A stretch of 64,000 nucleotides of DNA from Loxodes magnus (taxonomy: Eukaryota; Ciliophora; Karyorelictea; Loxodida; Loxodidae): assembly GCA_946699065.1 (NCBI GenBank), contig CAMPDV010000082.1, forward strand, positions 620,001 through 684,000, in the 5' to 3' direction. Positions within the stretch are counted from its first letter, which is position 1; each line of letters opens with the position of its first letter. The notes below the pieces were generated by a model that saw only the letters and a program-made list of their open reading frames with translations, ran no database searches and had not been told where the DNA came from. The position numbers and the translations under genes were made by a program. Shown here one piece after another: positions 38,501 through 54,175 of this stretch.

Positions 38501-41491
38501 ATGAAGTATGAGTTTAATTCAAATTAGGATAAACCCGATCCTAAGTATCTGAAGTATCGTTCTTACTGAACGAGAACTCGTCAAGTCCTTTCTTGCATTA
38601 TAACTTTAGCAAGAGTTGACAAGGAACTCAAAATTTTTGGGTCTCTAGCTGATAATAAATTTAAAAAGGAGGTTAAAGTATTAACGTCTATAAAAGCGTA
38701 GCGTAAGCAGATAACTAAAGAACCACCATTACCAATAGGCTTGATTCATCCAAAGAAGAGAACTAAATAAATACAAAGTGTTTTTTCTTCAATTCTACTT
38801 ACTTACACTCTAACTTTTATGGTATATCAGTATGTTTTTGTAGAGTAATGAGAGTTGAATGCGAACTTCTATTTCAATATAATAATTGATCTTTGCTTCC
38901 TCGTTGATACAATTCTTAACCTATTTAGCACTTTTTACTTAGAGGATTTTACTCTTGAACGTAGACATAAAGTAGTTATCATGTACAACTTAAAAAAAAG
39001 ACTGCTTCGTGATTTGTTATGTTGTTGTCCTATTGAATTCTTTGAATGATGTATGACCTAAAACTAGGTCACTACCATCACTCCTAAAATTTTTCGTCTT
39101 CTTTTGATTCCTAGATTTGTTAAAGCTTATTAGTTTTGAAATACTAGAAATGAAACTGTCGATAAATTCAAAGAAAGGTTTGATGGTCGTATCATAACCT
39201 TGCTAAGCTTCTTAGTAGTAACAGCATTAATAGTCCATTTCTATGGTTGCTTATGGTATTTTCAAACTACTTTATAAAGTGGAGAAACTAACTGAATAGC
39301 CAATTCTAATTTAAATGGATAGCCTAATCTAAGTTTGTATCTCGCTAGTATTTACTGAGCTTTTACAACAATCGCTACAGTAGGTTATGGTGATATATCA
39401 GCTAACAATAGTTTGGAAAGAATAATGGCAATTATATGAATGCTGTTTGGTGTTTGCTTCTACTCATTTACAATTGGAGCTCTTTCCAACTATATTTAGA
39501 CACTAGATACTAGAAAATCAAACTTAGCTAGAAAAATGGTATTTTTTACCTAGTTTTCATTGGAATCTTAAATAAATCTTAATCTGAAGAATCGAATAAA
39601 AGAAGCATTGGAATATAATAATCACGAAAAGGTGTTTAGTTGAGAAGAAAAGGCTGAAGTATTTTAAGAGCTTCCCCTTTCTATTAGATGTGAGATTATT
39701 AAAGCGATGCATAAAGGAAAAATTAATCAGATTCAGTTCTTCCAAGGAAAAAGTGAAGGCTTTATCTTTGAAATTGGGATATATCTTCAACCAGTTTTTC
39801 TATAAGAGAAAGATTTCGTTTATAAGCTAAATTAAAGAGCTGAAAGCATGTATTTCATTGTAGTTGGAAGAGTGAATTTCATTTTTGAAGTGGAAGGAGT
39901 GAAAACTACCTACAAGACTATGGTATAAGGAAGCTACTTTGGTGAAGTTGAAATATTTGCAAAATCTAATAGAGTGGATTATGCTTAAACTGATTGTGAT
40001 TGTGATTTGCTTGTAATAGATGCTGCTAAGATTTAAGCACTATTGAATGATTATCAAGATGTAAAATAATAAATGGAACTGATAGCAGAGAAAAGAGTTA
40101 TAAAAAACAATGAATAGATGCAAGAGCTAATGCAGCAAAGGAAGATTAATAAATTTAAGTTAAAACCTTAAAACCTAAGGGATGTACTAAGTCCAAGATT
40201 ACCAGCTTTAGGTAAAACCTAATCATGTTAACAACCTTAAACGTAATCAGAATGTCTTAATAAAAAGGCAATTAAAGTAGAAGCGAAACTCTAAAAGTTT
40301 AAAAAATAAAGATTCACAAATTTGGTTTAGCTAGCAAAGGAAATCTCCAAACTTGAAGAAATGGAATCTTTCAAAATTCCTAATTTAAAGAAAAAGCCTA
40401 AAATAAATGCTAAACTTTTAAATTCCCCTGCTTTATGAAGAAGAAAAATAAGTTAAACATTCATACCTAATATAAAGAGCTCGTTTAATCTTAAAATGGA
40501 GAAAATCGTTCAAAAAGAAAATAAAATTGGGAAAGAAGAGAAAAAGGAGGATCAGGAGAAATAATAGCAATGACCTCCCTAGCGCAAAAGAACTGCAAGA
40601 TTAAATACAAAAGCCTTAGACAGTGGAAGCATTGGAAGCTTAAATGATTCTCGTAGATCCTCAGTTGACTCTTTAAGTATGTAAATTTTGCAACTAATAA
40701 AAAAAACAAAAGATTAGAATGAAAACGCGAATTGGTTTTCAGGTAGTCCATTACAGAAATCTCTAAGTCCCTTATCAAACTTTATCAAATAGAAAAAGCC
40801 TTAAAAGCAAATTTAAGTTAAGAATACAGAAAACTAAAAGGAGAATAGTAAAGGCAAAGATGAAGCAACACAGAATAAAGAAAATTAAGAGGAAAAAATT
40901 TAAAGAAATTAGGTTTATGATACATTGCTAACAGAAAAGACATTATTAGAGGATAATAATCCACATAATATGTCCCAAATTTCTAATGCTTCTTAAGAAA
41001 GTCTTAAAAGTGAAGTGTCTTCTCCACTAAATATAAAAGGAAGTTTATCATCTAATAATTTCAGTCCTAAGTAGAACTCTTAAAAATCTATTTAAAATAC
41101 AAGAAAGAATCTATAAGGAAGTTTATTTAGTGCTAGTTAAACAACCACCTTTTCTCCACTTCCTAGATATAAAAAACCTGCTCAGCAAACGATGAATAAC
41201 AGTTTTACAAACATAGTCTAAAATTAAAACTATCAGGAGGTGGAATAAAAGGAATAAAAAACATACTAGTAAGCTAAATCTTTTGATACTGAATCAGAAA
41301 ATAATGATTAAAAATCCTCAAAGACTGATTTTTAAATTTAGGAAATAAAATAGATGTAAAAGTAAATATCATCCAACAAGAAGCAAATGAGAGTAAGTTT
41401 TAATTTCAGAAATTACAAAAAACAGTTAACGAGCATGGACAGACATTGGACTAAATAAAGACAATAGTAGAGAAAATCTCCACTTAATTGA
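38501..41491 (+). CDS. voltage-gated-type potassium channel with cyclic-nucleotide-binding-like domain
   Basis: About 996 residues if the TGA at 41489-41491 is the stop. Six membrane helices occupy roughly residues 85-330: S1 starts SILLTYTLTFMVYQYVF, S2 is FNIIIDLCFLVDTILNLF, a positively charged S4-like stretch follows, then S5, the pore SIYWAFTTIATVGYGDI, and S6. GYGD predicts potassium selectivity. A C-linker and a cNMP-binding-like fold follow (KTMVQGSYFGEVEIFAKS), as in EAG/CNGK/HCN channels. The cytoplasmic tail of over 500 residues is Lys/Gln/Ser-rich and disordered. The 3' end is uncertain: a 17-nt candidate intron (GTAAGTTTTAATTTCAG, near 41394) would bypass this stop and extend the tail. 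S4 has few Arg, so voltage sensing may be weak. Confidence 0.92.
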
Positions 41492-44091
41492 ATTCTTTTT
41501 GCGCATAGTAAGATACCCAAAGTACCTAAATAAGTCTTAAAAAGATTAAAAAAATAAGGCAAAAGAAGGTTATAATTCCAAAGTAGGAAACCTTTTATTA
41601 TTCCGACGAATCTAGTAAGGCAAACATTGGTTTATTAGATTAAATTATTTTTATTATTTGTAAGGAACTTTTACTTCCATTCTATAAGTAAAATATTAAT
41701 TCCTCCTTAAGTTCAACTTATTTAATAGCTCGTCTTAAATTACAATTAAGAGCATTAAAACTAAAATATTACTTAAGCTAATAAAGTTAAAGCTAATGTT
41801 TAGTGAAACGAATAAATCTATAATAATACAGAAAATATAAGGAAGATTGTCGACTTTAATCTAACGATTAAATTTGCTGGAGTTATCCTGAATTATAAAA
41901 ATACCTCTTGTATTCTTCTAAGCTTAAATTTTATGATACCTTTATGATATCTAAACTCAATACTGATATAAGCAAATTAATATATAGATTGCAAATAATG
42001 AAATTAATCATTAGTTTAATTATCCTTCCAAGAAGAATAGGCAAAATATACTCAATCTAGACTATATTAACTACTAAACTTTGATTTTTAAATGCTTTCA
42101 GATTTAGAAATTTATTTATAAGCAGAAAAACTCAAGTATAAGCATATACTGTAAGCAACTCATTTATAATGATAAACTATACATAATAAGTCTCTTAGTT
42201 AAAGGTAATTAAAACTAAACAAAAATAAAAGGAAAATCTTTAAATTATATGCAACTCTTTTCTTACTCTAATGCTTAAGTTTTCTATTAAAATATAATAG
42301 TTTAAGGAATCTGATTTTATACTAAGAAACTATAGAAGTTAGAAGGAGAATAGCAAATTATATATTTCTATTAATTAGATCTTATCTAATTTTAGCAATC
42401 GTATACTTTATCTTTAATATACAAATAGATTATTATAGTTCTTAACAAACTTGGCTTTGTATTATAATTTCTTTTAAACTCAGAATAAATAAGGTATCTT
42501 TACATTAATCTGGAGCTCCTTGTTTCATATTATACTCTAAAACCCTTAACTTAAATATCTATTTTCTACTAGAAATCTCAAAAAATATTTCCATTTAGTA
42601 TGCAAATTTAAAGTAGAAGCTATTGCAAATAATCTTATTCCAATAATAGTAAATAAAGCTGTACATTCTTTTAGTTTAAGCATATTTTCTTAATTAGCTA
42701 TTCAGCATTTATTATTAGCATCTATACTTTTTTATCTTTTTAGGTAGATTTTTATAATTCTTCTTTGTTATTAGATTTCTATATATTTCATTGATAGCAT
42801 GTCTTCCATTTATGCTTTATAATAATAGAAATATCAAATTTCAGCAAAGATATAGAATAGATGGGAAATAAGAGCTATTAGAGAAGTTTAAAGAGTTTAA
42901 TCTCAGTAAATCTAATTAAAAATGACTAGCAATAGTATCTGATAAAGTTAATTAACCTTGCTAATGATCAAAATATAGCTAAGAATATTCTTATTGATTA
43001 GCAAGCATGTAATTAATTATGTAACTAGTAAGAATATTATTAAATCTTAAGTACTCTTGTAGTCATATCAGAATATTTTTCTTAATACCTTAAAAATCAT
43101 ATAGATGTACTTTTTGATATTCAGGTACTTAGAAATAGAAAGAAGTATAAATGAAATAAATCATTAAAGCATAGCATCTTTCTTAAAACTATCTAAAGTA
43201 CTCTACTTTTACTGAACTGCAACGAATATACTCAAAAGCAAACTAAACATATGAGTCAAGCAAGTAATTGAAATAGTTATGCTAACTAGATATAGCTATA
43301 AATATACATTAGTAAATAATTGATTATTGTAATGATATAGTCTATCAAGTCTTACTGGGATAATTAGAGCAATCATTAGATTAATCTTATATATTAAGTT
43401 AAGATTTTAAATGCTTCTAGGTATTAATGACTTTAGTGTATATAATCCTAATAATTAATACGCTGGTAGATCTTTTAGAATCTTACTATTTGGAGAGTTG
43501 GAAGAGAGTTTATTTATTAGGACTAAATTATCAATAGTCACTCTTTTACTCTATTTTCACATGCTAGATATTTTATTCAATTTATTACATCTAAGCTTTA
43601 GTACTTTCTATAATAAAAACAATATTTATATAGCTAAGAGTATAAAAGAGATAAGACTAAGAAAGATAGCAGTTAACATAAGTGAATCAAGTATAAGAAA
43701 TTGTACAAAAGATATGCTAAAAGAGTTATAAAGATATCTAACGACACAATCCTAATGTATTAGCAATATTCAAATTAATGATTTACTTAGTTCTAGTAAT
43801 TTTAAATTAAGATGCTCATTCAAATGATATGTGATATGTTATAGCTATTTGAAGAGTTTACAACTATAGAATAGACTTAAGAAACTCTTTCAGTTTTATA
43901 CTTATCTATATTATATTAGGTAGGATAAGCTTGAATAAAGCTTTAAGTGTAATAAAGGTATTATGTAGTTTAATGATTGGGTTTGATTGCAGTTAGAAGG
44001 TAGAATAATGAGCAGAGATTGCGCTAGAAAGCAAGTTAAAGGAAATATAAATTAAAATTAGAATTTTTAAAGAAACATTTTTAAAATAAAA
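41492..44091. other. 2.6-kb AT-rich intergenic region
   Basis: A 77-codon ORF at 43498-43731 has random-looking AT-driven composition and is not supported. No other feature recognised. Confidence 0.4.
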
Positions 44092-45315
44092 ATGCTCAAT
44101 CCAACTGAGTGCTAATAATTGATAGAAATACTTAATACCGATAAATCACTAGAGTAATGCTTAGCCTAGTTCTAAAAGACATTCTAGAAAAACGAGTAAA
44201 TGAGAGCTGCTTAGGTGCTACTTCTCTTAATAGAAGATGGGCTACTATCAAAGACTTAAACCTTGTATTCCATTTTCATTCTCATCTCTTTCTAAGTCAA
44301 TATTTAGGAAAATTAACCTTTTATTTTTGCAGTATTAGAGCTGATGGAGTAGACAAAAGAACCTTGTTATAAAAAGCTGATAGCAGACTTGTTGGTTAAT
44401 AGTAATAATCAGGAGTTTAAAATATGCACAGCCTAGGATTTGTTGAAGTAAAACAAGGAAGAAGATGTAGCTAATTTGAATTTGTCAGAGCTTAAATTAA
44501 AGTACTAAGAAACTGTACCTAAAAACCTTAATTTCTAATGGAAACACAAAGCTCTTAGGCCTATTATTGTTGAAAAGGCTAATTAGGATCTTAAAAGTTT
44601 GAATCCAAATGATATCAAAGTTGCTGGATTTGAGCCAGAATTCTTAAGACCCTTCCCATAATTTATGGAAGTTTAAAAATCAGAAATTCATTGGTTAGAA
44701 CCTACTGTAGTACCTGAAGTTATGTGGGATTATGAAATGTTCATGGATAGACCAGGACTAAAAGAAGTGAAAGATTTAATGAACAAAGCACTCAGAACCT
44801 AATTAACGCAGCAACAAACTAAAATTATCAGAGATGCTTTAGAAAGCAATCCAAAGCTTATTTTCCGATGTGGCTTATAACCTAAGAAGTTACCTGATCT
44901 AGTCGAAAATAACCGTGAAATAGCAATTGAAGTCCTTTTAAAGCTGATGTAGTCTCCTTAAATTGAAGAATACTTTTAGGTCTTAGTAAACATGCATATG
45001 TCCCTTCATAGTATGGAAGTTGTAAATAAATTAGCAACTGTAGTTGAACTTCCATCAGAGTTTATGCACTTATATATCACCAACTGTATCCAGGCTTGTA
45101 ACTAGATAAAAGATAAATATATGTAAAATAGGTTAGTTAGACTAGCTTGCGTGTTCCTTCAAAGCTTAATTAGAAACAAAATCATAAATGTACAAGATCT
45201 TTTTAATGAAATTATAACATTCTGCATAGAATTCGGTAAAATTAAAGAAGCTAATGGATTGCACAAGCTGATTAAGAGTATGGAAGAAAAGAGCGAAGAA
45301 AAAATCAACCAGTGA
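44092..45315 (+). CDS. CNOT11: CCR4-NOT complex subunit 11
   Basis: 407 residues in one frame, ATG 44092-44094 to TGA 45313-45315. The N-terminal helical domain ([20 protein letters not shown], then NPFIF-like [12 protein letters not shown]) matches the CNOT11 module that contacts CNOT1. The C-terminal DUF2363-type domain is highly conserved: [68 protein letters not shown] and [18 protein letters not shown]11 with CNOT10 anchors the deadenylase complex that shortens mRNA poly(A) tails. A later ATG at 44157 looks like a start by ordinary ORF calling, but it lies in another frame that loses the conserved N-terminus. Confidence 0.95.
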
Positions 45316-45741: not shown

Positions 45742-46134
45742 ATGGTGAGAGCAGGAGTTCTAGCTGACTGTTTGAAATCAATTGTAAATGCTGAGAAGAA
45801 GGGTAAGCGCTAAGTTTTGATCCATCCTGTCTCAAAAGTTGTAATCAGATTCCTCTAAGTCATGCAGAGAGATGGCTACATTGGAGAATTTGAGATAATT
45901 GATGATCACAGAGCCAATAAAATAGTCGTAGAATTAATAGGAAGACTTAATAAAGTCGGAGTTATTAGTCCGAGATTCGATATGGGATTGGCTGATATAG
46001 AAAAATATGCTGCTAACTTACTTCCTTCTCGTTAGTTTGGAAAAATTGTCCTAACAACTACATATGGAATTATGGATCATGAAGAGGCGAAAAAAAAACA
46101 TGTTGGAGGAAAAATCCTAGGCTTTTTTTATTGA
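45742..46134 (+). CDS. RPS15A: ribosomal protein uS8 (RPS15A)
   Basis: 130 residues, exactly the family length, with no intron. The start [20 protein letters not shown], the middle [10 protein letters not shown] and [20 protein letters not shown], and the C-terminus GGKILGFFY all match eukaryotic uS8, an rRNA-binding protein of the small subunit. Two Gln at conserved sites are TAA (KGKRQVLI, FLQVMQRDG) and one is TAG (SRQFGK), and the stop TGA 46132-46134 lies right at the family end. It uses more G/C-ending codons than its neighbours, as expected for a highly expressed gene. Confidence 0.98.
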
Positions 46135-46465: not shown

Positions 46466-49400
46466 TCATTTTTCAGTTAGTTCTCTGAACCCAGACCATA
46501 ATAAAGGAGCGTTATACTTATACTGTTTTATATGGTCCAATAGAGTTTTACTTGGTCCATCATTTTTTTCTATTTTAAGTACCTCTTCAAATTATTTTTT
46601 AGCTTTTTATCATTTACCTTGTATATAACTCTAAAATCCTTCATTAAATTTATTTAGAAACTCTTAGGAAACTTCGTTTCTTAGTATTTTAATATCAATA
46701 TCTTTATTAATTAGCTCTCATATAGGTTTAGCTTATGATTAATCCATTGCTCTTTTCCTCAGCATATCTCTTTCTGCTTTTTGAGCTAATTTTCTTTTTT
46801 TGCGTTAAGCTTGAGATATATAGTCTTGCTCGTTAATTTCAGTAACTAAATTATCACTTTTCATATCAAATGTATAAAGTACAATAGGTTATAAACTCCC
46901 CTTGACTGTTACTCTGTCTATTTGTCTGAGATAAGATACTAATTCTTCACTGCATAATTCTGCTAAAACTCCAGAAATTAGCAAAGGAACTCCAAATTAC
47001 TTCGTAGCAGCTTCTAGTCTGGCTGCTATATTAACATTGGGGGACAGATAGCTGGCATCTATTTTAAATTCACTTCCAATAGCTCCCTAAGAATAAAAAT
47101 ATTACCTCTATTGACCATCCTGCATGCATTCCAAATCCCATCTGTACTTTATATCCTGGCATTCTTTGCTTTAATCCTGGATGACTACAATACTGTCAAA
47201 TAAATACTTACTTTTTAAAGTTTTCCACTTTTAGAAATTTTAGCTATTATTTTAATAAAGCTGATGATACTCATATCTGCTAGCTATTTTACCTCTCATG
47301 TATTTTTTACTTTCATCTCACCATTTTCACCAAACCTTTCAATCATTTCTTCGTTAAATTTTCAGCACAGCAAAAAAGCATCCCCAATGTTTTTATTTAT
47401 AGATCCTGAATATAGATCTACAAGTGAGTGAACTATATCTGCTATCTCGTTGACAAAAAGCATTACTTGTTCTTGCAAAACCTCAGTTGTGTCTGTAAAA
47501 TTTCTAATATCACAAAATCCAAAAATAGCCATAGTTTTTTATCCAGGAATCATAGGATTTACTTCACCATCTCCAGATTACATATTTTGAGCAATTATTT
47601 TACTTCCAGCTTCTCCAAATCCCAAAGCTAACAATGCCCCAATTTTTATAATGGTTTTTTCCAAAAAATCAGTCTCCATCTCAACCTTTTTTTTCTTAAT
47701 CTTCTTTGATCCTTTCTAGAAAAGCATATCCTTATCAAATTCATTTTATTCTTCTTCTTAAGCAGCTTTTAAGGGATTTTTAGCTATTTTAGATACTTTT
47801 TATATCATATTTTCAATAGGTCCTAAAACCAGCTCATTAGAATCATTACTAAATAAAATGCTTCCAAAGCCTAAAATGAAGCAGATCAAAAGAGTTCTAA
47901 GTATATTCAAAATAGCTTAAGTTTAGGTTTCTTTTCTAATGTCAATAACAGCCAAAGAGTTATAGAAATACTGATTACTTTCATCCAAAAAGATCATTTC
48001 ATACTCTGAATTTCTAAGATTATTATAGTCAACATCACTTTTTCAAGGATTGACTATTCCTGCGTAAATGTTATTAATTTCCAAATAAATCAAAGGGTAT
48101 TTATCATTTTAATGTAGGATAATATAAGTACTATAAGCTTCCACAAAGTTATAGTATTCTCTTTACCTTATAAATGTATCCATCACTTTTAAACCATATA
48201 AGTAAGATGTATTAGCATTAGTATAAGTCTCAATGTTAAAAAGTTAAAGACCAAACATCATTGCTAAGACTAAAATAATTACCCTTTTTGTTGTAAGTTC
48301 AGATAGTTTCTTTCCTACTTTACTCTCTTCAGGTATCTCTATTTTTTCATCTTCTATTGCTTCTTTTTATTCCTATAATGGTTATTTCTCAACTGGAGTT
48401 TTAAATAAAGTAGTAGGTTTTTCCTTACTTTCTACCTATTTTTAGTTTTTGGTTAAATTACTAAATATTTGATTAATCTTAGAAATTTATGGTTATTTGT
48501 TTTATTATTTTTCCTCTTTTTACTCTTTCTATACTTATTCTTACAATTAAAAAGGTAAAACAGCTAATGGATTTATTTTATCACTTTTTCTCCTTATATA
48601 TTATTACAAATTTTTTTCAGCTTTTTCTTCTTCTTTTTGCTTATTTGCTGAAATATCCATTATAGAATTGGATTCTAAATCAGAGGAATTTGAAATAGGT
48701 TTAGTTGCTAAGGTACGAGATTTTAACTATTTTCTTTTAAATAATGGTGTGCTAATGATACTTTCCTTTTGATTTTCTTTAGATTTATCCTATATCTGAA
48801 CTAAATCTTCAAGAGAGGGTGAAAACTTTGCTGATTATTATGAAAAGCCTTAACCAACTTTAGGAGTTACTTACTATCTTTGCACTTTTTTTTCCAACTC
48901 TCCTTCAATACTAGTACTGTTTTGTACCTTTCTACTTTAGTAATTTTCAAATACTTGCTTCATTCAAAGTGAATTACCCATTTTTTGTACCAATATATTG
49001 GATTATGATTTCTAGATATTAGCAATATCATCTTTCATCATGTTCTTCTGTTAGCTTAATTTATAAAGCTTGACTATTCTGATTAACCTTATGAGTCTTA
49101 TTATTCTTATTACTCTCCCTGCTCTTGTCCCAGCTCTAGAAGCTCTTCCTGCTCTTGCTATTTATGTTGTTTATGCTGCATTCTTCCCACTTTGACTAGT
49201 TCCCATCATAGGGTCTCAGAATCATCCAATATCAGGAATCAAAGATAGAGTAGAAACAATATCAAGTCAAAAGAAAAAGCTTAATCAATATTTATCCTTT
49301 GCAAATGAAGAAATCACTATCTCTGCAGTAAACATTCCTAAGCAAACTATCGAAATTGTGAAAAATATCGAATCAGCACTCTAAAGCAAATAATACAATC

Positions 49401-50439
49401 TTACCTATTCTGTTGCTGACAATCTTATGTCGTCTCCAAAGAGAGCAAAGATAGTCAAAGCTGTCATTATTAAAGTAAAAATTCAATGATTGAGTACCTT
49501 AAGGAAATATATTTTCCATCAAGGAATTTTTTAATTTTCTATCAGTTGTAGACGACTTTCTTAAATCTAATCTACCATTTCCTTTTTAGCTCCTTCATTT
49601 TCTTAATCTCTTGGTAATTCTTTACTTTTATTTAAGATATCTCCATTCTATGAGCTATCAGTATGATTCATCAATATTCTATTAGTTTCACCCCCTGAAC
49701 ATTAAGTATTTCTGCCCGAATCTAGCACTAAGCATTTAAACGCCATTGGAGTGGCCATAGTTTCTAGTGTCTGCATTGGATTTTAGCATTAGTTTTTCTA
49801 GGGAGTAATAGAGTGAAATATCTCCTCTTCTAAGTCAGATTAATTTTTAGAGCTATGATTACTAGATTAAGAAGCATAAAAGGGATCTTCTCTTGACTGA
49901 ATAATCTTCTTAGACATATTTTGAGTGAAATTTTTGGATATTTAATAGTATAAATAAAGATTTGCTACACTTTGCTCATCTCTTATTACTTCTAATTACT
50001 AAGCAGATACTACTTTTTTACTATGCTCCTTTACTTTTATTACTGGTTATTTTAATACGGTATATTATTTATGCAAGCTTGATCAAGTAGACTAAGCTTT
50101 TTTATATTTAGATGCTTTGAGCTTTTGCTACTTGATTTTATTACCACCATCTCCTTAACCTGGATTAATGGTAATAAATTATTAATCAGTCTATTTCTGA
50201 TTAAAAGCATTTAAATACTCATAGTTGCTTTTCAAGTTCAATATCTAGAAGTAAAAACCTTAGTAGTTTATCTAAGTTCCTGCTATTAATATTTATCACT
50301 AAGCAAGAACATCATCTGAACAAATGTCAATCATAGATATTTATAAAATAAGATGATTTCCAGTATTATATTCTATAAAACTAAGTGAGCCAAATAAAGG
50401 CAATCATGTCTAATAGCTAATTTCCTTATATGCAAACAT
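46466..50439 (-). CDS. voltage-sensor domain fused to class III adenylyl/guanylyl cyclase
   Basis: About 1303 residues after introns of 24 nt (49381-49404), 19 nt (47193-47211) and 19 nt (47087-47105). Residues about 320-450 form an ion-channel-type voltage sensor: S1 IMTALTIFALFGDD, S2 FFTISIVCLGMFTAEIVIS, S3 FFFWLDIVSTLSLIPD (TGA as Trp), and a textbook S4, RAGRVIRIIRLIRLIRIVK. No S5-pore-S6 follows; instead there is a long Gln/Lys-rich linker. Next come a membrane helix (RVIILVLAMMFGLQLF), an extracellular segment, a second helix (ILRTLLICFILGFG) and, at about 960-1170, a class III cyclase: AIFGFCDIRNFTD carries a metal Asp, NIGDAFLLCW the second, and SYLSPNVNIAARLEAAT the transition-state Asn/Arg. 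A helical tail follows. Substrate (ATP or GTP) cannot be told. The start could instead be ATG 50332-50334. Confidence 0.92.
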
Positions 50440-52690: not shown

Positions 52691-54175
52691 AGCTAAATAA
52701 ATCCCTTTTGCATTTTCGATGGCATATAGTAATTACTATCTTAGCTTGTCTTTGTCTTCATAATCATAAATTTTTAGAGTGTTAAAGCATGTTGAGGCTT
52801 CAGGGAGCTTTTCTTAGTCTATTGTCCTCTTTTACACGGTAAACTTGTACTATAGTTTAGAAAATCCAAACATAGGTGGTTTGCTCTTTCCTGTTACAAA
52901 CTATAAGAATTTAGCTTTTTAATCGTTATCAAATTCGCATAAAATTTCCCATAAATGAATAATTGTTAAAGAGCATTCAGTGAATCCATTTGAAAACTAA
53001 GTATTTAATTTTAAGTCTTCAATATCAAAACTTTTTTAGTTATCTGAGATTAAATGACATAACTCTTATGCAGAGAAGGAGCTGATTCATTCTGAAGGAA
53101 TTATCTCGTTAAAACCTTTTAAAAATGATTCAATTTGCTTTTTAAACTAAATATTTAGCTTAAAATGAGCCCAATAGTAAATATACTATAATTTGTTAGA
53201 CTCTTTAACTAAAATGTTTCTACCTTCTGGTATTAATTCGACTTCTTCCTTTGTTTCTTCGTTTATGGCAGTAAAATTGATTCCTAATTATTCAATATCT
53301 GAAAAGCTTCTCATTGACTAAAAACTATTATAAAGATTCTCGTCAAGATACCGTAATTCATTGAATAGAGTTAGCTATCCTAGCATCTTTCGAGTAAAAA
53401 AGACTGAAAATTGTGCGTCTATTGTAAAGCCTTCATAAATAGCTTTACCTAAAACTTTTCCATAGAATTAAAGTTCATTTTCTTAAATAGAACTTGTGCT
53501 TATCACTAGTTTATTTTCCTCATTAAGCTTCCATAATTTATTTTTTTCGCTGAACACTTCTTGAGTCAGTTAAGTTAGGTACTCATTAAAAAATCCACCT
53601 AAGTCTTGGCCACTTTCGTTTTATTAAAATTTATCTTTAAATGTAACAATAAATTTTTGCTTAATGGGCTGAGTCATAAATAATTATTTCGAGTCTTCAA
53701 CCAAGTTTTCTCTAGAAATTGTGACTTTTATGTCACTTCGATTTTTTTAATCTTCTTCAATCTTTTTTCTTAATTATTTGCACTTGAACTTAATTGGAAT
53801 AGAATGAGGAAGTTTCTTTTATAGAAATTCTAATTGTTCCTAAGTCAAAAATTTAGGTTGTTCATATTATCACACTTAAATATCACAAAACTTAATATCA
53901 TTATTAAAACTATATAAAGTCCTCATTAGTTTCGCAGCGTTTTCCATTAAGTTAGTCTTGGGCTGATCTAACTATAAAGATGAGCACTTAATAACGAAAG
54001 GATTGAATGCCTTGACCATTCTTTCAATTTGGTTTAGCGTGAAAAATTCTTCTAAGTGAATTTCATTTTTATTGATTATTAGTAAATTTTAATTATATGC
54101 TAGACAGAATAAATTAAAAGTCCCTACAAAATACAATTCTTTTTCTTGCCAGTTTTCTTTCTCGAATTAATCAAG
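52691..54175 (-). CDS. HECT-type E3 ubiquitin ligase (ends uncertain)
   Basis: The HECT fold is clear: SGQDLGGFFNEYLTQL, a Phe-Tyr-Gly-Lys motif (ELQFYGKVLGKAIYEG), the region FVTGKSKPPMFGFSKL, and the active-site loop LPEASTCFNTLKIYDY with the ubiquitin-accepting Cys. The family C-terminus is reached at AIENAKGIYLA (52691). The next codon is TAA (52688-52690), and no in-frame TGA follows for more than 180 bp. Upstream the frame stays open: the ATG at 54017-54019 gives about 443 residues, but good coding sequence extends to about 54175, where strand composition flips. The N-terminal region is short for the family, so the gene may be truncated by the opposite-strand ORF at 54184. Catalytic residues look intact. 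Confidence 0.85.

Follow-up and report, generated by a model that had tools for sequence, protein, structure and literature searches.

Enzymes that join a pore-less voltage-sensor domain (VSD) to a cyclase were reported in 2025 from Phytophthora and no fewer than 90 further organisms, according to the part of that report consulted (PMC12223298). The same part describes the 'bimodal' VSD-cyclases of Phytophthora parasitica, PPTG_13136 and PPTG_13761, as having 5 and 3 N-terminal helices and about 250 residues between their domains, and a later pair of membrane helices flanking a loop goes undescribed there, the comparison being one of descriptions only; the gap could have room for such a unit. 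Ciliates and apicomplexans have a long-named counterpart, the 'adenylyl cyclase/K+ channel' family of Paramecium and Plasmodium, characterised in the available text by six transmembrane segments (TMs) and a GXG motif after TMD6 (PMC3283738). It is multigene in ciliates, with 16 such genes in P. tetraurelia, and in Paramecium hyperpolarisation raises cAMP (PMC4588038). The Paramecium enzyme has been called a K+ channel itself since 1992 (PMC12414865), and a K+ conductance of the purified cyclase is cited in the consulted parts of three reviews (PMC5746546, PMC12414865, PMC4588038). More distant parallels, as far as the consulted part of one review covers them, are Ci-VSP, which couples a voltage sensor to a cytosolic enzyme, and SLC9C1 (sNHE), a regulator of sperm motility with a voltage sensor on a non-channel protein (PMC10651576).

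The window, a 64-kb stretch of the Loxodes magnus genome (contig CAMPDV010000082.1), carries on its minus strand a gene for a pore-less VSD-cyclase, hereafter the window gene and window protein. Unlike it, SLC9C1 is an exchanger rather than a cyclase and has its sensor after the transporter; Ci-VSP differs in being a lipid phosphatase with a short linker and no two-helix unit. Features of the window are as follows.

49917..46466, minus strand: window gene as modelled, 1137 aa, start methionine uncertain
49917-47212, 47192-47106 and 47086-46466, minus strand: exons
47193..47211, minus strand: intron 1, 19 nt, placed from frame and motifs rather than RNA data
47087..47105, minus strand: intron 2, 19 nt, placed in the same way
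49057..49512, minus strand: voltage-sensor domain S1-S4, aa 136-287, with Ion_trans and Shaker matches
49057..49125, minus strand: S4, with R265, R268, R271, R274, R277 and R280, then K283 and K286
48310..49056, minus strand: hydrophilic K/Q/E-rich linker, aa 288-536, 249 aa, no TM and no pore found
48220..48309, minus strand: TM5 by hydropathy, aa 537-566, SELTTKR just before
47929..48219, minus strand: segment between TM5 and TM6, aa 567-663, about 97 aa, extracellular by predicted topology
47836..47928, minus strand: TM6, aa 664-694, GFG inside at 683-685, followed by GPIENM (699-704)
47605..47622, minus strand: GFGEAG motif, aa 766-771, after TM6 and adjoining the cyclase
46880..47535, minus strand: class III cyclase domain, aa ~795-1000, both 19-nt introns inside
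46559..46648, minus strand: weak TPR-like stretch, aa 1078-1107, TPR_2 E 0.0098, below cut-off
about 38777-40051, plus strand: CNBD potassium channel with TVGYGD

Read with TAA and TAG as glutamine, internal TGA as tryptophan and TGA as stop, the window gene contains 64 TAA/TAG codons and 12 internal TGA codons, and runs in a single frame from ATG 49917 as far as intron 1, with its terminal TGA at 46468-46466. An earlier, sequence-only reading had extended the locus over 46466..50439; its end stands, while the modelled start lies at 49917. That start methionine is uncertain because the open frame extends upstream of it, and the stretch up to 50439 may hold genuine N-terminal residues or 5' UTR.

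Hydropathy places S1-S4 at residues 136-287, and the full sensor with a six-Arg S4 that had been claimed is borne out by six arginines at three-residue spacing (R265-R280) and by a Pfam Ion_trans match above the cut-off (E=3e-10). The match covers profile positions 4-113 of 241 only, namely the S1-S4 half, leaving the S5-P-S6 half unmatched; it was detected when the sensor was scanned alone or with the linker, and a scan of the whole 1137 aa listed Guanylate_cyc and the weak TPR_2 with Ion_trans absent. Against the PDB, a sensor profile matched Shaker at 2.2e-6, Shaker sequences being the sole matches at E<=0.01, and the single sequence reached Shaker at just E=0.058. S2 F196/E199 and S3 D219 are invariant in 20/20 aligned rows and, together with the basic S4 repeat, fit the charge-transfer centre of voltage-gated K+ channels; invariant positions across the 20 sensors include R150, R153, R156, E75 and D95 (A1 numbering). 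Comparison with the paralogue L039 gave pS 0.82 and pN 0.15 for the sensor. A single-sequence structure model of the VSD was poor (pTM 0.28), and a fold search with it returned nothing at E<=0.001.

The cyclase was also read correctly as to its metal- and purine-binding residues. Pfam Guanylate_cyc matched above the cut-off (E=1.2e-8), and the residues D803, K842, D846, S943, N950 and R954 include both metal aspartates (D803, D846), the catalytic Asn and Arg (N950, R954) and the purine-site lysine (K842), all of them present. The second purine-site position, aligned by eye within DASYLSPNVN, is Ser943. In class III adenylyl cyclases this residue is usually Asp or Thr, so the assignment of ATP specificity rests on Lys842 and overall similarity; the product is probably cyclic AMP. 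The nearest solved structure is the beta subunit of a photoactivated adenylyl cyclase (PDB 5mbh, 2e-12), which shares the class III catalytic domain but differs from the window protein as a soluble, light-regulated BLUF protein.

A search of the same genome for the sensor gave 48 matches, the window's own included, at about 31 places, 27 of which, again counting the window, show the order sensor, linker, TM5, loop, TM6 and cyclase. Taken with the E values of Ion_trans (3e-10) and Guanylate_cyc (1.2e-8), the 48 matches put the sensor-cyclase signal beyond chance. Linkers at these places range from 32 to 479 aa. S4 and TM5 share one frame at 24/27 places, and a short intron would explain the frame change at the other three (L044, L048, L050). 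Both metal aspartates are kept in 20/26 rows; the sensor persists with the metal ligands gone in L040 and in the short-linker group of L030-L033 and L058, and with the catalytic Arg gone in L054 and L055. A Pfam Guanylate_cyc search of the genome, which did not recover the window gene and thus gives no count of the VSD-cyclase family, returned mostly pairs of strong places, seemingly of another cyclase type. No relatives were found in viral contigs. The special status given to the pore-less layout was overstated: it recurs at 27 of some 31 sensor places, has a precedent in the VSD-cyclase family of 2025 (PMC12223298), and is consistent with the 'GXG after TMD6' arrangement reported for the classical ciliate and apicomplexan cyclases (PMC3283738). 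One trait of the 2025 family, a VSD without a pore helix and Guanylate_cyc in one chain, is present in the window protein; another is a location on cilium or flagellum. The window gene is not new as a kind and appears to belong to a large ciliate enzyme family that was known before.

The linker following S4 is indeed long (249 aa), and an S5-P-S6 unit in it was sought in several ways. With 19-residue Kyte-Doolittle windows and a threshold of 1.2, hydropathy peaked at -0.06 over windows inside residues 291-545, revealing no TM segment between S4 and TM5. In 49050-48330 the coding frame has a single GxG, which reads GQG and sits in a hydrophilic stretch, and the two other minus-strand frames peak at 0.76 and 1.13 with no GxG. 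Pfam scans of this stretch of the window gene in its coding frame, and of L044, L048 and L050 in three frames each, did not detect the S5-P-S6 half of Ion_trans; extra matches all fell below the cut-off (e.g. PFF1_TM, E 0.14, in L044). One frame of the L044 linker (frame 0) peaks at 1.22 and another frame of L048 at 1.88; these carry no weight because certainly non-coding frames reach as much (L055 2.07, L039 1.88). No T-x-G-[YF]-G was found in the linkers at the 27 places when these were translated in frame with S4 or TM5, and no K+ filter motif was found between S4 and the cyclase in the window gene or its family. A pore exon missed in 49050-48330 is thus rejected for the three minus-strand frames, and the S5-P-S6 with T-x-G-[YF]-G filter that defines voltage-gated K+ channels was not found in the window protein. 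Between the window protein and L039 the linker is far less conserved (pN 0.43) than the sensor.

The CNBD channel, unlike the window sensor, matches Ion_trans over 5-239 of 241, and its TVGYG fits the pattern T.G[YF]G. It had been placed 5 kb away as a potential target; the channel exists, but lies about 6.4 kb from the end of the window gene. Two unrelated genes, for CNOT11 and ribosomal S8, stand in between, so the short distance does not argue for a connection and we rejected the channel as a linked target; that the cyclase product acts on it is speculation.

Beyond the linker, hydropathy confirms two membrane helices flanking a segment (TM5 537-566, TM6 664-694), its extracellular side being predicted. 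Of the sensor-like ectodomain proposed there, the loop of about 97 aa is present, but profile and Pfam searches matched it to no known sensor fold. A profile from TM5 through half of the cyclase (A2, 18 members) had 0 matches to solved structures at E<=0.01, and Pfam assigned Guanylate_cyc to 14 of these members, its remaining matches being weak and spread over various families, with no sensor domain among them. The TM5-cyclase core has a pN of 0.12 against L039, and its single-sequence structure model was poor (pTM 0.23). The window protein also displays six TMs, of which the first four make up a voltage sensor, and a C-terminal class III adenylyl cyclase, as in the family of Weber 2004, whose six TMs are, by its consulted description, related to those of voltage-gated K+ channels; that family is labelled as K+ channels, whereas no pore segment was found here, again comparing descriptions only. 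GFGEAG is a candidate for the literature's GXG after TMD6 (PMC3283738), lying as it does at 766-771 after TM6 (664-694); as a literature search string it retrieved nothing.

We judge it about two-thirds probable (0.66) that the window gene encodes a karyorelict (Loxodes-like) version of an alveolate/stramenopile membrane adenylyl cyclase, regulated by voltage through its S1-S4 sensor. Voltage control is what we infer from this architecture, and the likeliest function appears to be that the protein turns voltage directly into cyclic nucleotide. It would act as an adenylyl cyclase dimer, either homodimeric or heterodimeric, in which a change in membrane potential, possibly hyperpolarisation by analogy with Paramecium, would move S4; this movement would shift TM5/TM6 together with the pre-catalytic segment next to them, thereby switching cAMP output without ion flow. 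Since the linker is long, hydrophilic and very unequal among paralogues, the sensor may exert its effect from a position packed next to TM5/TM6, not through a pull on the linker, and direct mechanical coupling of S4 to TM5 is awkward to square with such a linker. The resulting cAMP could tune ciliary beating and cAMP-gated targets.

Among the alternatives, the one that survives best, though unlikely, is that TM5-loop-TM6 forms a real receptor, making this a ligand-operated cyclase with S1-S4 merely a targeting or assembly module. Two helices flanking a loop are typical of receptor cyclases, and between paralogues the loop is more divergent than the cyclase; yet a mere anchor would need neither the S4 arginines nor the S2/S3 acidic residues, which are invariant in 20 sensors with low pN. 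We give slightly less credence still to a true bifunctional K+ channel/adenylyl cyclase, with TM5, TM6 and GFG forming an unorthodox K+ pathway. The reported K+ conductance of the purified Paramecium enzyme favours it and counts against our preferred explanation; exocytosis in Plasmodium sporozoites, which requires extracellular K+ and is stopped by K+-channel inhibitors (PMC2279260), also speaks for a channel, as do the reported GXG of the family, with GFGEAG kept in 21/26 rows, and the GFG in TM6 of the window protein and L039. GFGEAG, however, lies about 70 residues past TM6, flanked by a charged stretch and the catalytic core instead of by TM5 and TM6, and reads SFGEDG or GFGTDG in the other 5/26 rows; the TM6 GFG is missing from 24/26 rows, no other G-[YFLIV]-G occurs in the 26 core rows, and the linker scans above yielded neither filter nor Ion_trans pore half.

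Pore-less S1-S4 domains can themselves conduct, as in Hv1, and a review is devoted by its title to such currents (PMC10651576), but that the S1-S4 here passes protons or other ions, with the cyclase reading the local change, is improbable, the sensor profile's only PDB matches (E<=0.01) being Shaker. Least credible is a misjoining, across an AT-rich spacer, of two adjacent genes, one for a small sensor protein and one for a receptor cyclase: the linker has low complexity and poor conservation, and where all three stops can be read as sense an uninterrupted frame argues only weakly for a single gene, but S4 and TM5 share a frame at 24/27 places despite linkers of 32-479 aa, and the domain order is identical at 27/27.

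Returning to the voltage-regulated cyclase, a wider proposal, which we regard as tentative and would sooner doubt than adopt, is that the whole ciliate/apicomplexan 'adenylyl cyclase/K+ channel fusion' family consists of pore-less sensors beside two-helix receptor cyclases, with the GXG a cytosolic pre-catalytic element, some 30 isoforms in the karyorelict, and members without catalytic residues acting as voltage-sensing regulatory subunits of heterodimers. The channel label of the family looks doubtful, and with 27 copies that combine a conserved sensor, unequal linkers and no recognisable pore, the choice between a channel and a Ci-VSP-like voltage-operated enzyme is now testable. Paralogues without catalytic residues would provide natural pseudo-enzyme variants for studies of coupling, and the family may offer natural parts for voltage-controlled cAMP production.

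The window cyclase gene occupies one frame of the minus strand from an ATG at 49917, upstream of which the frame continues, to 47212 if TAA and TAG encode Gln and TGA encodes Trp. Removal of two 19-nt GT..AG introns (47211-47193 and 47105-47087) restores its cyclase motifs, and its stop is the TGA at 46468-46466. Twelve TGA codons lie inside the gene, for example at the Trp of S3 (FFFWLDIVSTLS), and TGA is apparently also the stop of the nearby ribosomal S8 gene, whose frame reads ...GGKILGFFY and then TGA. Published work on Loxodes magnus, a karyorelict, describes UGA as the sole stop codon, in dual use, and a mean intron length of 19.3 bp (PMC11441545). Because all three stop codons may be sense here, an unbroken frame is little evidence by itself; agreement in frame between S4 and TM5 across related genes says more.

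Kyte-Doolittle hydropathy in 19-residue windows (threshold 1.2) delimits the following membrane segments of the window protein:

aa 136-287: S1, S2, S3 and S4
aa 537-566: TM5
aa 664-694: TM6

The S1-S4 unit with a six-Arg S4 and the two helices past a long linker, both proposed in the sequence-only reading, are borne out. S4 carries R265, R268, R271, R274, R277 and R280, followed by K283 and K286, and Pfam Ion_trans matches the sensor alone (E=3e-10) over profile positions 4-113 of 241 only, with the same outcome when the linker is added (5-112). In the PDB, a profile built from 20 family sensors has just eight matches at E<=0.01, all of them Shaker entries (best 2.2e-6); the single window sensor sequence reaches Shaker only at 0.058. 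Five weaker hydropathy peaks (1.21-1.36) follow TM6, four in the cyclase and one containing the stretch GFGEAG. The cyclase, also as first described, matches Guanylate_cyc (E=1.2e-8), and its nearest solved structure is a photoactivated adenylyl cyclase (2e-12). It has D803 and D846 as metal ligands, K842 for purine binding, and N950 and R954 for catalysis; S943 occupies a site that usually holds Asp or Thr. The C-terminal tail gives a TPR_2 match below threshold.

A search of the 705.7 Mb assembly (7843 contigs) with the window sensor gave at least 48 matches, grouped into 31 places among the matches listed. At 27 of these, the window included and sensor place C46, 662759 left out of the count, sensor, TM5-loop-TM6, pre-catalytic part and cyclase follow in this order on one strand. 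L041 and L042, both counted in the 27, are near-copies of each other on different contigs (46 of 60 sampled 50-mers in common), so the gene number is somewhat below 27. A further place (contig C8, 179757) has a nearby cyclase match from coordinates only, and no cyclase follows the sensor on its own strand within the DNA around L028 and L035, the latter with a partial TM5. Two near-alike sensor stretches on contig C73 (L056/L057, at 44038 and 49801) lie inverted about 5.4 kb apart; downstream of the one at 44038 the surrounding DNA covered holds no cyclase on the same strand as the sensor, and this stretch may be an assembly artefact or an incomplete copy in inverted orientation. S4 and TM5 share a frame at 24 of the 27 places; the frame change at L044, L048 and L050 is probably due to an intron.

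Pore-less voltage-sensor cyclases are already in print from Phytophthora and at least 90 other organisms (PMC12223298, 2025). Related enzymes have been read as cyclase/K+ channels: PMC4588038 gives this as the apparent structure of the whole set of sixteen P. tetraurelia cyclases, and also reports a cAMP rise accompanying hyperpolarisation. The reading recurs in parts of PMC5746546, PMC2279260, PMC10651576 and PMC12414865, of which PMC2279260 reports that sporozoite exocytosis requires extracellular K+ and PMC12414865 mentions the Paramecium enzyme. Counting from S1, TM6 is the sixth helix of the window protein; about 70 residues beyond it, adjoining the catalytic core, stands GFGEAG. We take this layout to be that published as 'GXG after TMD6' (PMC3283738), in which case GFGEAG would be the published motif. 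Across 26 aligned family sequences from TM5 to mid-cyclase, G-[YFLIV]-G occurs only as the GFG of GFGEAG (21 rows), as GFGTDG (2) or inside TM6 (2, the window protein and its nearest paralogue, L039). The GFG within TM6 counts in favour of a pore, but is missing from 24 of the 26 rows.

The window linker, 32% of whose residues are charged, contains no hydrophobic segment detectable by hydropathy, and its sole GxG, a GQG, lies among hydrophilic residues. Linkers of the 24 same-frame places reach a hydropathy of at most 0.75; that of L044 reaches 1.22 in frame 0, and off-frame readings elsewhere reach 2.07. Family linkers, translated in frame with S4 or with TM5, show no T-x-G-[YF]-G, and Pfam finds no pore domain in any frame of the L044, L048 and L050 linkers. 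As a positive control, the CNBD potassium channel noticed earlier does exist nearby, with Ion_trans over 5-239, Ion_trans_2, cNMP_binding and TTIATVGYGDI, the standard TVGYGD filter. Hydropathy, motifs and Pfam revealed neither S5/S6 nor a missed pore exon in the linker. The neighbouring genes are:

38777-40051, plus strand: CNBD potassium channel
44902-45276, plus strand: CNOT11 (Pfam), between the channel and the cyclase gene
45760-46131, plus strand: ribosomal protein S8 (Pfam), between the channel and the cyclase gene
52703-53572, minus strand: HECT ubiquitin-ligase domain (Pfam 1.1e-79)

Elsewhere in the genome, 68 of 73 listed Guanylate_cyc places are strong and most are paired about 1.5-3 kb apart, the pattern expected of two-domain ciliate guanylyl cyclases, of which they would represent a large expansion.

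Between the window gene and L039, the sensor from S2 on (pS 0.82, pN 0.15; 151 codons) and TM5 to mid-cyclase (0.72, 0.12; 365 codons) contrast with the linker (0.62, 0.43; 204 codons), the pN contrast alone being trustworthy because synonymous sites are near saturation. Invariant in 20 aligned sensors are the Phe and Glu of S2, the Asp of S3 and three Arg of S4. Both metal Asps are kept in 20 of 26 rows; the sites hold Asn and Gly in L040, and Gln and Gly in a short-linker group (L058, L030-L033), while L054 and L055 keep the Asps but carry Ser or Gly in place of the catalytic Arg. All these paralogues retain a sensor with basic residues at three-residue spacing, which suggests that they may be regulatory partners.

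Domain content, conservation and the absence of a recognisable pore are established at the level of sequence. We infer regulation of the window protein by voltage, ATP as its substrate, its topology and its dimerisation; by analogy with Paramecium physiology, hyperpolarisation would be the activating direction. As metal, purine and catalytic residues occur in a single chain, the enzyme would work as a dimer, either of two identical chains or with a paralogue as partner. Linker length varies from 32 to 479 aa across family places, which speaks for a sensor packed alongside TM5/TM6 rather than for a taut S4-linker-TM5 lever; the sensor would then act with no pull through a stretched linker. The sequence-only observation was sound and its functional guess, membrane potential converted directly into cyclic nucleotide, reasonable. 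Voltage-sensor cyclases are a kind already known; the contribution of the Loxodes genome is a large family for comparison, with conserved sensors and no visible pore, together with a group of sensor-bearing pseudo-cyclases.
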